From Phycisphaeraceae bacterium (lineage in GTDB: Bacteria > Planctomycetota > Phycisphaerae > Phycisphaerales > SM1A02), in NCBI GenBank assembly GCA_019636755.1, contig JAHBWZ010000009.1, positions 1 through 64,000 on the forward strand: 64,000 bases of DNA, given 5' to 3'. Both the position numbers and the translations under genes were made by a program. Position 1 is the first letter of the stretch; every line of letters starts with the position of its first letter. This document shows, piece by piece, positions 46,991 to 53,260 of this stretch. The notes under the pieces were generated by a model. That model was not told the DNA's origin. It did not search any database and worked only from the letters and a program-made list of their open reading frames with translations.

Positions 46991-49015
46991 TCAGCCGGTC
47001 CACGCGCCCAGCAGGAGCAGCAGGTCGCTGAAATCGACGTCGCCGTCGCAGTCCAGGTCGGCGCTGCAGAATGCCGGGCCCGGGCACGGACCCCACGCCG
47101 CGAGGAGCTGCAGGACATCCTCGAAATCGACGGACCCGTCACCGTTGAGATCACCGGGCGGATTCGTCGTCACCTTGACCGCGACGACGTCCATGTCGAC
47201 CGGGGGTGCGCGGTTCCCGACCGCCGGGTCGTCCCAGAGGTCGTAGATCGTCTGGCCCCAGTGATTCGTGGTGTTGCGGTCGCGGAGGAACTCCATGTAC
47301 TCCCGCGTCGTGACCTGGTAGTACAGCGTCACGACCGAGGTGACGGCGCCCGCGGGGATCTCGTACTCGGTGTCGTCCCAGTGCTGCCCGTCGGCGTAGG
47401 CGTACCCGATCGGCCCGCCGCCGAACGCGGCGAACGCCGCGTTCGTGAAGCCCATGGGCGGGATCCGGTTGTCAAAGACGACGACGTTGTTCAGCGCCAG
47501 GTGGAAGGACTTGCCCTCCGGCAGATTCGTGAGCGCCGCGACGTTCTCGTCCATGCCATGATCGGCGAGATAGACCTTGGTGCTCTTCTCATCGAGCGTG
47601 GCCGCCCCGAAGTCATACGCGCCCCGCTCCTCCACGAGGGTGTCGGCGTCGTCGTAGAAGCGGACGTTGAGCCACATCCGCCGACCCTCCGGATACCCGC
47701 TGGGGAGCTTGTGCCCCGACCAGTTCACCACGCGCACCTTGAGCGTGCTGCCGACCTGCGACACCAGGACATCCGACGCGGCGCGGAGCAGGTCGATATT
47801 GCGCGAGATGGACGCCTCGACGGCGTCGTCGGTCATCCCGGTCTCGGACTCGCCCCAGTACGCCTGCACGGCCCGCAGGACCCAGTGATTCGAGCCGGCG
47901 AAGGTGTGCCGCTTGAGGTCCGGCCGCTCGAAGAACGGATCGAACTCCCACGCGAAGCAGCCGCCCGCCGAGATGGTCGGCATGTGACAGTCCTGGCAAC
48001 TCTGCATCACGCCGGTCGGGTGATCGCCGCCGAAGCGGCCGTCCACGAAGGAGACGCCGCCGTTCGCGAAGGCGCTGAACGCCCACTCGCTGGCGGTCGT
48101 CTGCTCCGGGAACATGTCGTACGGATCCTGGGTCGGGTGCGGCGCATCCAGCGGCGCGAGGGCGTAGGTGCCGTCCGGCTGCTTCATGAAGAGCGGGTTC
48201 ATGACGTCGTGGCAGGTCATGCACATCTCGCCCTTGTGATGGAAGGGCGAAAAGATGACCGGCACGCCGTGCATGTTCATCGCCGGATTCTCCGCGATGT
48301 CCAGATACGGCCCGCGGCGGACGTTCGCCGGGTCCACGACGAATCGGCCGTTGCCGCGACCGGTCCCCGGTGGAAACGCGAGCGCGGCGAGGATCGCCGC
48401 GTCCTGCGCGGGGCTGTCCACCTCGAGCACCGGGTTGACCAGCCGATGGCAGAAGTGGCAGTTGACGCCGTCGAAGTCGTTGGTGAAGCCGGAGACGATG
48501 AAGTCATCGGTGGTTCCGCTGACCGATCGCCCGGCAAGCCACGCGCCCGGCGAGTGGCATCGGATGCAGAACTCGCCCGCGCCGGCGGCGTCCTGGTTGG
48601 CGATCGCCAGCGCGGCATGCCAGACCGGATCCCGCGTCGATTGCCCCATCATCGACGCCACCCATCCGTCCCACGGCTCGTGATAGACGGTCTCGTCCAG
48701 GTACTCGCCGTGGCACACGCTGCACGCGAGACTGGAGATGATCGGCGTCACGGTGGACCCGGAAGGGTCCGGCTGGGTGCCCGGCTGGAAGAAGTCCTCC
48801 AGCGTCGTCGGCACCTGGACCTGCCCGACCGGGCGGACGTGGGGGCGGCGTGCGGCTGATGGGCTCAGAACGCCGGTGCCCGCCGGTTCCGGCGTTCGCC
48901 CGGTGGTCCGTCCCGAGGCCAGAAGATCCGCGGCGATCACGCCACCGGCCGCCAGGACCGGGACCGTGACCAGGGCGAATCGCCGAAGCTGCCCCCCTCG
49001 GCGCGCTGCTCGCAT
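46991..49015 (-). CDS. Pentahaem cytochrome c with C-terminal dockerin-like repeat
   Basis: A 674-residue exported protein. N-terminal signal/anchor (residues 10-33). Five CxxCH haem sites: 98-102, 150-154, 186-190, 265-269 and 340-344, interspersed with His candidates for distal ligands. A beta-rich middle region (about 395-600) follows. The last 55 residues contain two EF-hand-like calcium loops (DLNGDGSVDFEDVLQLL, DLDCDGDVDFSDLLLLLGAW), the dockerin type found at the C-terminus of many planctomycete secreted proteins. It likely carries electrons outside the cytoplasm while docked to a surface partner. Promoter TTGACG-N16-TATGTT and a GGAAGGGAAG ribosome-binding site lie upstream. Confidence 0.9.
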   Translation of the reverse strand: MRAARRGGQLRRFALVTVPVLAAGGVIAADLLASGRTTGRTPEPAGTGVLSPSAARRPHVRPVGQVQVPTTLEDFFQPGTQPDPSGSTVTPIISSLACSVCHGEYLDETVYHEPWDGWVASMMGQSTRDPVWHAALAIANQDAAGAGEFCIRCHSPGAWLAGRSVSGTTDDFIVSGFTNDFDGVNCHFCHRLVNPVLEVDSPAQDAAILAALAFPPGTGRGNGRFVVDPANVRRGPYLDIAENPAMNMHGVPVIFSPFHHKGEMCMTCHDVMNPLFMKQPDGTYALAPLDAPHPTQDPYDMFPEQTTASEWAFSAFANGGVSFVDGRFGGDHPTGVMQSCQDCHMPTISAGGCFAWEFDPFFERPDLKRHTFAGSNHWVLRAVQAYWGESETGMTDDAVEASISRNIDLLRAASDVLVSQVGSTLKVRVVNWSGHKLPSGYPEGRRMWLNVRFYDDADTLVEERGAYDFGAATLDEKSTKVYLADHGMDENVAALTNLPEGKSFHLALNNVVVFDNRIPPMGFTNAAFAAFGGGPIGYAYADGQHWDDTEYEIPAGAVTSVVTLYYQVTTREYMEFLRDRNTTNHWGQTIYDLWDDPAVGNRAPPVDMDVVAVKVTTNPPGDLNGDGSVDFEDVLQLLAAWGPCPGPAFCSADLDCDGDVDFSDLLLLLGAWTG

Positions 49016-49258: not shown

Positions 49259-50185
49259 ATGCCAGCGCCGACACCCGGCCCGCGTGCGACCCGCCCGAGC
49301 TGTCGACTTTCCGGACCGGGCACGCCCGCACCGCGCGCCGCGGACAGAGGGCATCGCCCCGACGTCGCCGGTCGGGCCCGCGCCCTGGCCGGATCCCTGG
49401 CCATCGCCCTGCGCATCGCCGTCGCCCCCGGACTCGGCACCGCCCTCCTGCTGACCGGTGGCTGCACGCGTGGTCAGGACGCCAGGCCGGTGCCGGGGTC
49501 GCTTCTCAGGATCGACCGCGACCGGTTCGACCAGGCCTTCGACTCGGTCCTCGCCGTCGCCGCCGACGAGGGCTTCACCGTCTCACTGGTCGATCGCCGC
49601 GCCGGCATCATCGAGACCGAGCCGCGCCATGCACCCTCGGTCCTCGAGCCGTGGCATCCGGACGGCTCGACGCTCGGCACACGTCTCGCCAGCACACTCA
49701 ACGACCGGGCGCGCCGTCTCCGCTTCGAGTTCGTCGCGGAGAACCGGGAGGTCACGCGGATCGCCACCGAGGATCTCCCCGGCCCGGACCTGCTCGGTCT
49801 CCGCGCCGACGCCGGCCACGGCGGCACCGGCGCCGCCCCCGCGGGGCCGGGGGCGGCGCCCCCACAGGGCCCGCCCGCATCCGATGCCGCCCTGGTCCTG
49901 CGCGCCTGGACCTGGCTGGAGCGCAGCCACGTCCCGGGCCTGCGCCGGCATCCGTGGAGCCGTTCCCTGACGACGCGCAGCGGCTTCGACGGATGGACGG
50001 ATGATGAAGCGGCGTGGGAGGCGCTCCGCCGCCGCCCGTCGGCTGGCCGGCGAGGGTCCATCCAGCGCGAGGTCGTCGAGCGCGATCCGGCCTTCGAGCG
50101 CCGGCTTCTCGCCCGGATCGAGTCGCGGATCCGCGCGCTCGGCGAGGCGGCTGATCGCGTCCACGACGGCAACACCGATCGGTGA
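49259..50185 (+). CDS. Putative lipoprotein
   Basis: A 308-residue protein with a long N-terminus, a hydrophobic stretch and a lipobox-like LLLTGGC (Cys near residue 69). The core, about residues 85-155 (FDSVLAVAADEGFTVSLVDRRAGIIETEPRHAPSVLEPW...LNDRARRLRFEFV), resembles a family of planctomycete hypothetical lipoproteins I recall only loosely. The 160-residue remainder is Ala/Gly/Arg-rich. The TACACT box 7 bases ahead supports the start. Function unknown. Confidence 0.65.
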   Translation: MPAPTPGPRATRPSCRLSGPGTPAPRAADRGHRPDVAGRARALAGSLAIALRIAVAPGLGTALLLTGGCTRGQDARPVPGSLLRIDRDRFDQAFDSVLAVAADEGFTVSLVDRRAGIIETEPRHAPSVLEPWHPDGSTLGTRLASTLNDRARRLRFEFVAENREVTRIATEDLPGPDLLGLRADAGHGGTGAAPAGPGAAPPQGPPASDAALVLRAWTWLERSHVPGLRRHPWSRSLTTRSGFDGWTDDEAAWEALRRRPSAGRRGSIQREVVERDPAFERRLLARIESRIRALGEAADRVHDGNTDR

Positions 50186-50455: not shown

Positions 50456-53260
50456 ATGAATCCGCAGCCTCGCGCGGATCTCGCCGTCAACGGCTGGAAC
50501 GCTCCCTACATCGACGAACAGTACCGCCGCTGGCAGGAGGATCCGTCCTCGGTCAGCGCCGACTGGGATGGCTTCTTCCGCGGATTCGACCTCGGCGTCC
50601 GGACCGCGGAGGGCCCGCCCACCGGCGAGCAGGCGCTGGACCACGTCGCCCATACGGGGCAGTCGAAGGTCGACTCGCTCATCTATCACTATCGCGACAT
50701 CGGGCACCTCGCCGCGTCGCTCGATCCGCTGGGTCGCGAGCGCCCGCTGCCGGAGCAGCTCACGCTGGGTTCGTTCGGCCTGGCGGAGGCCGACCTGGAT
50801 CGCCCCTTCGATCCCGGCCACCTGCCGCTCCCCCACCCGTCGCCGCTGCGCGACATCCGCGCGCACCTGGAGGCGACCTACTGCCGCAGCACGGGCGTGG
50901 AGTACATGCACATCCAGGACCGGGAGCAGCGCCGGTGGCTCCAGCGGAAGATGGAGCCGGTGCGCAACCAGCCCGCGTTCACGCCGGAGGATCAGCGATG
51001 GATCCTCTCCGCCCTCATCGAGGCGGACGGGTTCGAGAACTTCCTTGACACGCGGTTCCGGGGCAAGAAGCGCTTCGGGCTGGACGGCGGCGAGTCGCTC
51101 ATCCCGATGATCCGCGCGCTCTGTGACCTCGGCCCCTCGCAGGGTGCGGAGGAGTTCGTCTTCGCGATGGCGCATCGCGGCCGCCTGAACGTCCTGGTCA
51201 ACATCCTGCACAAGTCGTACGACCAGATCTTCACCGAATTCGATGAGGCCTGGGGCGACGACTTCGTGGAAGGCGGCGGTGACGTCAAGTACCACCGCGG
51301 CTACAGCGGCGACGTCCCGACGCGCGACGGCGGCACCGTCCACCTCTCGCTCTCGCCGAATCCGTCGCACCTGGAGTTCGTGAACTCCGTCGCCCTGGGC
51401 CGGACGCGGGCGAAGCAGCGTCTCCGCCGCGACCGCGAACGGACCTGCTGCGTACCGCTCATCATCCACGGCGACGCGGCGTTTCCCGGACAGGGCATCG
51501 TCGCCGAGTGCTTCAACATGATGCGCCTGGACGGCTACACCGTCGGCGGCGCGGTCCACATGGTCATCAACAACCAGATCGGCTTCACCACCGATCCGTC
51601 GGACGCGCACAGCGGCCGATACTGCACCGACATCGCGAAGATGGCGGGCGCCCCGATCTTCCACGTGAACGGCGACGATCCGGAAGCGTGCGTCGCGGCC
51701 GCCCGCCTCGCCCTGGAGTTCCGGCAGCAGTTCCACAACGACGTCGTGATCGACATGTGGTGCTACCGGCGGCACGGACACAACGAGGGCGACGAGCCGA
51801 CCTTCACACAACCGCTCATGTACGAGGCCATCCGGAAGCATCCGCGCGTCGTCGAGACGTACGCGGCGCGCCTGATCGCGGCGGGCATCGTGGAGCAGGC
51901 CGCGTATGACGCCGAGTCAGCACTCACGCGCGCCCGCATGGACGAGGCGCAGACACGGACGCGCGAGAACCCGGTCGAGCCGAACATTCCCGCGTTCCGC
52001 AGCGTCTGGCACGGCCTCACCGGCGCCTACAACGACGATCCGGTCGACACCGGCGCGTCGCGCGACGCCCTCATCCGCGTCTCCGAGGCGCTCGGTCGCG
52101 TGCCGGACGGATTCACGCTGCACCGCAAGCTTGTCCGGCAGTGGGAGTACCGCCGCGACGCCGTCCGGACCGACCAGCCGATCGACTGGGCCCTTGCCGA
52201 ACTGCTCGCGTACGGCACGCTGCTGACCGAGGGTCACCCGGTCCGGCTCACGGGACAGGACGTGGAGCGCGGCACGTTCAGCCACCGGCACGCCGTCGTC
52301 GTCGATCAGAAGACCGGCGCTGCCTGGCGCCCCCTCGACCACGTGGATCCGGCACAGGCGCGCATCTGCATCCACAACAGTCCGCTCACCGAGTCGGCCT
52401 GCCTCGGGTTCGAGTACGGCTACTCGCTGGGCGATCCCAACATGTTCGTGATCTGGGAAGCGCAGTTCGGCGACTTCGCCAACGGCGCGCAGGTCATCAT
52501 CGACCAGTTCATCGCCTCCGCCGAGACGAAGTGGCGGCGACACAGCGGCCTGACGCTCTTCCTGCCCCACGGGTACGAGGGGCAGGGCCCCGAGCACTCC
52601 TCCGCGCGGCTGGAGCGTTTCCTGATCCTCTGTGCGGGGGACGACATGCAGGTGGTCTACCCGACCACGCCGGCACAGATGTTCCACCTGATGCGCCGGC
52701 AGATGAAGCGGAACTTCCGAAAGCCTCTCGTCGTCATGACGCCGAAGAGCCTGCTTCGCAATCCACAGGCCGTGAGCACCACCGGGGAATTGGTCTCCGG
52801 CGCCTTCCGGCTGGTCATCGATGATCCGGCGGTCACGGATCCGCGCCGCATCCAGCGGCTGATCCTCTGCACCGGCAAGATCTGGTACGAACTCGCCGCC
52901 CACCGCGACCAGGTCGGCGCGAATGACGTCGCGATCGTCCGGATCGAACAGCTCTTCCCGCTGTCGAAGTCGTTCCTCGATCCGATCTTCGAGCGGTACG
53001 GCCACTGCAGCGACATCGTCTGGGCGCAGGAGGAGCCGAAGAACATGGGCGCGTGGCGCCACATGGATGCGCTGCTGCGCGAGTACTATGACGACCTGCG
53101 GATCCGCTATGTCGGCCGCGATCCCAACTCCTCCCCCGCCGAGGGCTCCACGAAGATGCATGCGCAGCTCCAGGAGCGCATCATGCGGAACGCGGTCGGC
53201 ATCGGCAGCGACCGCGAGTCGCCCGCCTCGGCGCGGCCCGCGCAGCCCATGACCGCCTGA
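50456..53260 (+). CDS. sucA: 2-oxoglutarate dehydrogenase E1 component
   Basis: A 934-residue thiamine-diphosphate-dependent decarboxylase of the citric acid cycle. The N-terminal NGWNAPYIDEQYRRWQEDPSSV is the region that binds E2. Conserved blocks include EFVFAMAHRGRLNVL, GDVKYHRGYSGD, LSPNPSHLEFVNSV, HGDAAFPGQG and NNQIGFTTDP (active-site/ThDP), and the late SSARLERFL and AQEEPKNMGAW segments. Length matches the family. Followed after 54 bases by sucB, so both core subunits are co-transcribed; lpd (E3) is not in the window. Confidence 0.97.
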   Translation: MNPQPRADLAVNGWNAPYIDEQYRRWQEDPSSVSADWDGFFRGFDLGVRTAEGPPTGEQALDHVAHTGQSKVDSLIYHYRDIGHLAASLDPLGRERPLPEQLTLGSFGLAEADLDRPFDPGHLPLPHPSPLRDIRAHLEATYCRSTGVEYMHIQDREQRRWLQRKMEPVRNQPAFTPEDQRWILSALIEADGFENFLDTRFRGKKRFGLDGGESLIPMIRALCDLGPSQGAEEFVFAMAHRGRLNVLVNILHKSYDQIFTEFDEAWGDDFVEGGGDVKYHRGYSGDVPTRDGGTVHLSLSPNPSHLEFVNSVALGRTRAKQRLRRDRERTCCVPLIIHGDAAFPGQGIVAECFNMMRLDGYTVGGAVHMVINNQIGFTTDPSDAHSGRYCTDIAKMAGAPIFHVNGDDPEACVAAARLALEFRQQFHNDVVIDMWCYRRHGHNEGDEPTFTQPLMYEAIRKHPRVVETYAARLIAAGIVEQAAYDAESALTRARMDEAQTRTRENPVEPNIPAFRSVWHGLTGAYNDDPVDTGASRDALIRVSEALGRVPDGFTLHRKLVRQWEYRRDAVRTDQPIDWALAELLAYGTLLTEGHPVRLTGQDVERGTFSHRHAVVVDQKTGAAWRPLDHVDPAQARICIHNSPLTESACLGFEYGYSLGDPNMFVIWEAQFGDFANGAQVIIDQFIASAETKWRRHSGLTLFLPHGYEGQGPEHSSARLERFLILCAGDDMQVVYPTTPAQMFHLMRRQMKRNFRKPLVVMTPKSLLRNPQAVSTTGELVSGAFRLVIDDPAVTDPRRIQRLILCTGKIWYELAAHRDQVGANDVAIVRIEQLFPLSKSFLDPIFERYGHCSDIVWAQEEPKNMGAWRHMDALLREYYDDLRIRYVGRDPNSSPAEGSTKMHAQLQERIMRNAVGIGSDRESPASARPAQPMTA

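Follow-up and report, generated by a model that had tools for sequence, protein, structure and literature searches.

The gene at 46991..49015 (minus strand) of the 64,000-nt stretch of Phycisphaeraceae DNA analysed here (hereafter the window) starts with ATG and encodes a 674-aa pentahaem c-type cytochrome with a dockerin-like C-terminus. Its two halves are already known kinds, and our literature search found no paper on the pairing of a planctomycete multihaem cytochrome with a dockerin. The question is what such a module does on an electron carrier, and whether it places the cytochrome on a dedicated surface structure.

A hydrophobic N-terminal segment, presumed to be a signal (residues 1-35; 48911..49015, minus), was recognized from the sequence and appeared in the AlphaFold2 model as a low-confidence helix at residues 12-33. 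It is followed by the pentahaem domain (about residues 62-412; 47780..48832, minus), a beta-rich, Ig-like domain (about residues 413-614; 47174..47779, minus) and the dockerin-like tail (residues 620-672; 47000..47158, minus). The model of the whole 674-aa protein (pLDDT 86.6, pTM 0.83), a prediction that contains no haems, comprised a helical haem domain, a beta-rich domain (mostly pLDDT 91-98) and the tail. The five haem motifs, all on the minus strand, are CSVCH (residues 98-102; 48710..48724), CIRCH (150-154; 48554..48568), CHFCH (186-190; 48446..48460), CMTCH (265-269; 48209..48223) and CQDCH (340-344; 47984..47998). A preliminary description had noted five CxxCH motifs in one protein, and this observation was confirmed: 5000 shuffles of the protein gave a mean of 0.008 and a maximum of 1. 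It had also staked its reading on conservation of the haem sites in orthologues, and all five sites were kept in 39 out of 39 aligned full-length homologues, where every one of the ten cysteines and five histidines of the haem motifs was invariant. None of the remaining frames of 100 aa and longer in the 64 kb window had a CxxCH, nor was a second cytochrome gene found there. In addition, H249, H370 and H435 were present in 39/39 homologues, H505 in 37/39 and H259 in 36/39; these five histidines are candidate distal ligands, which would allow bis-His ligation of all five haems. One cysteine outside the haem motifs, C353 (47957-47959, minus), was also invariant (39/39) and is a candidate ligand, disulphide partner or active-site residue.

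Because the N-terminal hydrophobic segment (about residues 12-33) is present and haem attachment requires export, it is plausible that the protein is exported. The genome encodes haem lyases of the CcmF/NrfE family and CcsB, and ResB was not found in it. Of 397 genomes from the class, 141 contained homologues of residues 40-612; a sample of 294 genomes from the phylum at large gave profile matches in 126, many of them distant. Three copies of the core are present in the bacterium's own genome (the window gene, C17:189579-191237 and C14:152384-153937), all of which end in a dockerin. About 1.9 kb past the end of the C14 paralogue lies an 806-aa ORF with five CxxCH motifs and a match to Cytochrome_C554 (L077:11538-13955, plus; G000:C14). 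Elsewhere, the pentahaem-dockerin gene is duplicated in tandem, with open frames 3 bases apart (L035:5809-9747, plus; L063), and at G003:C7:68590-70121 (L125) the core is split across two reading frames, likely due to a frameshift or an assembly error.

To place the core, its predicted fold and its sequence profile were compared with known proteins. The only significant PDB fold match was 5ze8, the penta-haem cytochrome c552 of Thermochromatium tepidum (Foldseek, E 5.5e-15, TM-score 0.66 by target), which the core profile also found by sequence (E 6e-6). The N-x-x-G-H-K-L-P-x-G motif, which contains H435 and marks the start of the Ig-like domain, aligned in this profile with PHAMPTG of 5ze8. 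The two proteins share five haems, the predicted fold and the H-x-x-P-T-G motif, whereas their identity is 16% and 5ze8 is shorter (435-aa chain) and has no dockerin tail. With its five haem motifs and modelled structure, the core is predicted to have the pentahaem c552 fold. T. tepidum c552 has been described as structurally related to the pentahaem cytochromes (PHC), proteins that also have an Ig-like domain and include Geobacter ExtKL, Gsu2801 and the sPHC/lPHC proteins of cable bacteria (PMC11976967). The window protein appears likewise to combine five haems with an Ig-like domain, although its surroundings hold no ext-type gene cluster, it has no sign of selenocysteine and a dockerin tail is added. 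In its own model, the five-haem part was followed by the beta-rich domain. The ExtKL model NF040886 was matched weakly by 31 of 39 family members, and the window protein reached 25 bits against a cut-off of 250; it thus appears to be a distant relative of ExtKL and not a member.

The tail contains two tandem calcium loop-helix motifs, the hallmark of type I dockerins. The first loop, DLNGDGSVDFED (residues 622-633; 47117..47152, minus), and the second, DLDCDGDVDFSD (653-664; 47024..47059, minus), were identified from the sequence; each fits D-x-[DN]-x-D-G-x-x-D-x-x-D and is overlapped by a helix that continues past it (631-639 and 662-670, respectively). D622 and D633 of the first loop were at least 90% conserved among aligned homologues. 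The two calcium loops previously noted in the last 55 residues were upheld by the Dockerin_1 match, by the solved dockerins 5lxv and 2y3n, both of which match the tail, and by the helix after each loop. Scores against the known dockerin families lie near or below their cut-offs: for Dockerin_1 (PF00404), 20.2 bits (E 7e-4) by hmmscan of the whole protein and 23.1 bits in a six-frame genome search, around a cut-off of 22.9, and for the GC-type dockerin NF041540, 17 bits, under the curated cut-off of 29, which about a dozen other tails in the genome reach. With both families the window tail shares the two calcium loop-helix repeats and the C-terminal site, and in the cysteine pair between its repeats it resembles other tails of its genome; of those read, many have cysteines in this linker.

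Six-frame family searches of the bacterium's own genome revealed at least 56 matches to NF041540 (E <= 0.01) and 21 to PF00404. The dockerin was located at the extreme C-terminus in 29 of 30 loci read; for the remaining one, L016, the script had chosen the wrong frame. Carriers of the tail include FG-GAP proteins, beta-helix proteins and a multicopper oxidase, the last being a second redox enzyme so tagged (L022:1-1668, plus; G000:C17 around 64643). GC-type dockerins were also found in 46 of 61 genomes (own and 60 nearest relatives), mostly in ten to eighty or more copies. Because at least 50 further proteins of this bacterium bear the same tail, it is probably a shared means of attachment rather than a docking device reserved for electricity-exporting proteins.

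On the basis of these results, we consider it probable, if by no means certain, that the window protein is an exported c552/ExtKL-like pentahaem cytochrome carrying the generic C-terminal dockerin-like attachment module of its lineage. The protein would leave the cytoplasm through its N-terminal hydrophobic segment and receive its haems from a Ccm-like system. The five covalently bound haems, presumably bis-His ligated, would then carry electrons across the compact N-terminal domain, with the Ig-like beta domain after it, while the tail would tether the protein in the cell envelope via a common receptor other than a Pfam cohesin. Such a protein might act within the envelope, relaying electrons or reducing small molecules, rather than forming a dedicated long-range conduit to the outside of the cell. 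By analogy, the nearest proposed roles would be oxyanion (selenite) reduction and electron transfer, as in ExtKL.

The tails found on the pentahaem core differ across the phylum. Within the class, a dockerin ends most homologues. Outside the class, one family has a 98-residue end that contains two loop-like repeats and terminates in ...CP, other homologues carry a different end of 130-140 residues, and in some the protein finishes directly after the core. In the family with the ...CP end (f42; L110, L112 and L114-L123), this segment replaces the dockerin on the pentahaem core and its loops are dockerin-like; no NCBIfam match was found for L114. When the tail types were mapped onto an 88-core tree, 12 changes were required, compared with 34 for shuffled labels; thus, tail type tracks lineage, with several changes along the way. 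In 16 out of 16 dockerin-rich near genomes checked, the pentahaem protein carried the dockerin tail. The tail-less proteins L087 and L088, with which these were contrasted (from G161 and G356), occur in genomes that lack GC-type dockerins and have few type I dockerins (1 and 9). It should be noted that the association between a missing tail and a dockerin-poor genome may be a single event, because L087 and L088 are sisters in the tree.

Alternatively, the protein could be a periplasmic catalytic multihaem reductase acting on nitrite, selenite or a similar substrate, with the calcium tail serving stability or solubility and docking to nothing. The tail-less homologues (L087, L088 and L113) suggest that the core works alone. 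The 5ze8 fold neighbour and the ExtKL group also count in favour of a reductase: a role of ExtKL in selenite reduction has been given as a preliminary result (PMC5877670), and a pentacoordinate haem has been predicted in pentahaem proteins of the ExtKL/Gsu2801 group (PMC11976967). On the other hand, the catalytic CxxCK motif of NrfA is absent from the protein, nitrite reductases appeared only as weak PDB profile matches to the core (E 0.01-0.9) and, with five further histidines conserved, none of the haems clearly lacks a distal ligand. Some variants of NrfA carry CxxCH at the catalytic haem, so the missing CxxCK does not by itself settle the NrfA question. Moreover, tails, though varied, are kept in most lineages, which suggests a role in placement. 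We regard a reductase with a purely stabilizing tail as possible but somewhat doubtful.

A quite unlikely explanation is that the tail is a sorting signal removed after export, like PEP-CTERM or type IX signals. The idea that the C-terminal repeat is a plain sorting tag that is cleaved off had been raised in advance, and its first part fits our data: the tail has the look of a module in general use for attachment or sorting, occupies the very C-terminus of dozens of diverse proteins and varies in type with lineage. Several features argue against cleavage. Past the calcium loops there is neither a transmembrane helix nor a basic end nor a short recognition motif, and the protein stops 10 residues past the second loop. 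Moreover, the loops are conserved, and a tag destined for removal would have no obvious need of this.

The preliminary description had suggested that a dockerin on an electron carrier implies docking to a surface scaffold or S-layer partner and offers a possible route for extracellular electron transfer. A cohesin-bearing scaffold would then hold the cytochrome in a route dedicated to this purpose. The module is a genuine dockerin-like one on a multihaem protein, and cohesin/dockerin proteins have been discussed in connection with syntrophy in anaerobic methanotrophic archaea (PMC9012536), and a non-cellulosomal 'planctosome' has been proposed for freshwater planctomycetes (PMC6461901). The window protein shares its type of tail with these and with cellulosome-type systems (PMC11557425), but it lacks a cohesin scaffold and the load is a cytochrome. 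The search for cohesin-like partners that had been recommended found no match to PF00963 in the bacterium's own genome at E <= 10, and cohesins of this family, whose profile could miss divergent members, were identified in only 10 of the 61 genomes (own and 60 nearest), leaving 51 without. Comparison of this number with the 46 dockerin-bearing genomes indicates that a recognizable cohesin is not the general receptor of the tail, which is a lineage-wide module. MtrB/PioB (PF11854), the only porin type searched, was found in 0 of 41 genomes, and no porin was present among the immediate neighbour genes. In addition, at least 50 proteins of unrelated kinds carry the tail, the core swaps tails across the phylum, and the window has no second cytochrome. 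Neither the scaffold claim nor the dedicated electron route was borne out. The present data do not require such a route, possible though it is, and we rate cohesin-based docking for dedicated extracellular electron transfer as very unlikely.

Under the preferred explanation of a generic envelope attachment module, attention moves from this single cytochrome towards its tail, and to the receptor for the dozens of exported proteins that bear dockerin tails in Phycisphaerae genomes, where recognizable cohesins are mostly missing. The interest of the locus is moderate and comes mainly from the receptor of this very common tail. The pentahaem family should be a good probe for it, in that a haem stain tracks location and the same core is available with other tails or none. 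A broader reading, which we put forward only speculatively and consider rather unlikely, is that Phycisphaerae have a cohesin-independent, dockerin-type display, held by a receptor at the cell surface, that includes redox enzymes such as the pentahaem cytochromes and the multicopper oxidase, forming a dockerin-tailed redox layer.

Finally, the neighbouring genes were examined. On the side of the tail lie a short stand-alone protein with a FliN/FliM C-terminal domain (PF01052; 46590-46946, minus) and, beyond it, a GH15 glycoside hydrolase (PF00723; 44568-46577, minus). On the other side are a divergent gene for a lipoprotein with a lipobox and no Pfam or NCBIfam match (49364-50185, plus) and a 2-oxoglutarate dehydrogenase E1, named from its sequence alone (50456-53260, plus). 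The lipoprotein gene was found directly upstream of the cytochrome, divergent or codirectional, in 27 loci (among which L105 repeats the window), about eight of them with operon-like spacing of 20-60 bases, and the lipobox cysteine was invariant in 26 of 26 rows. This adjacency had suggested a dedicated partner that anchors the cytochrome, a candidate that was dropped and is now highly improbable: the gene was present in 46 of 47 genomes tested from the order, nearly always as one copy and including genomes without the cytochrome (G149, G300, G326, G013, G032 and others), and its weakly BamC-like domain is more likely to belong to a housekeeping lipoprotein with a conserved place. Since the lipoprotein gene is also kept where the cytochrome is missing, inherited gene order is the more likely cause of the adjacency. 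The best fold neighbours of the lipoprotein were BamC structures, all below significance, and its family is a candidate for an unannotated BAM-associated lipoprotein. In L033, L038 and L044, marine loci of Phycisphaeraceae type, the cytochrome is likewise surrounded by genes related to those for the dehydrogenase, the FliN-type protein and the GH15 hydrolase, and the FliN-type gene keeps its place in the order.
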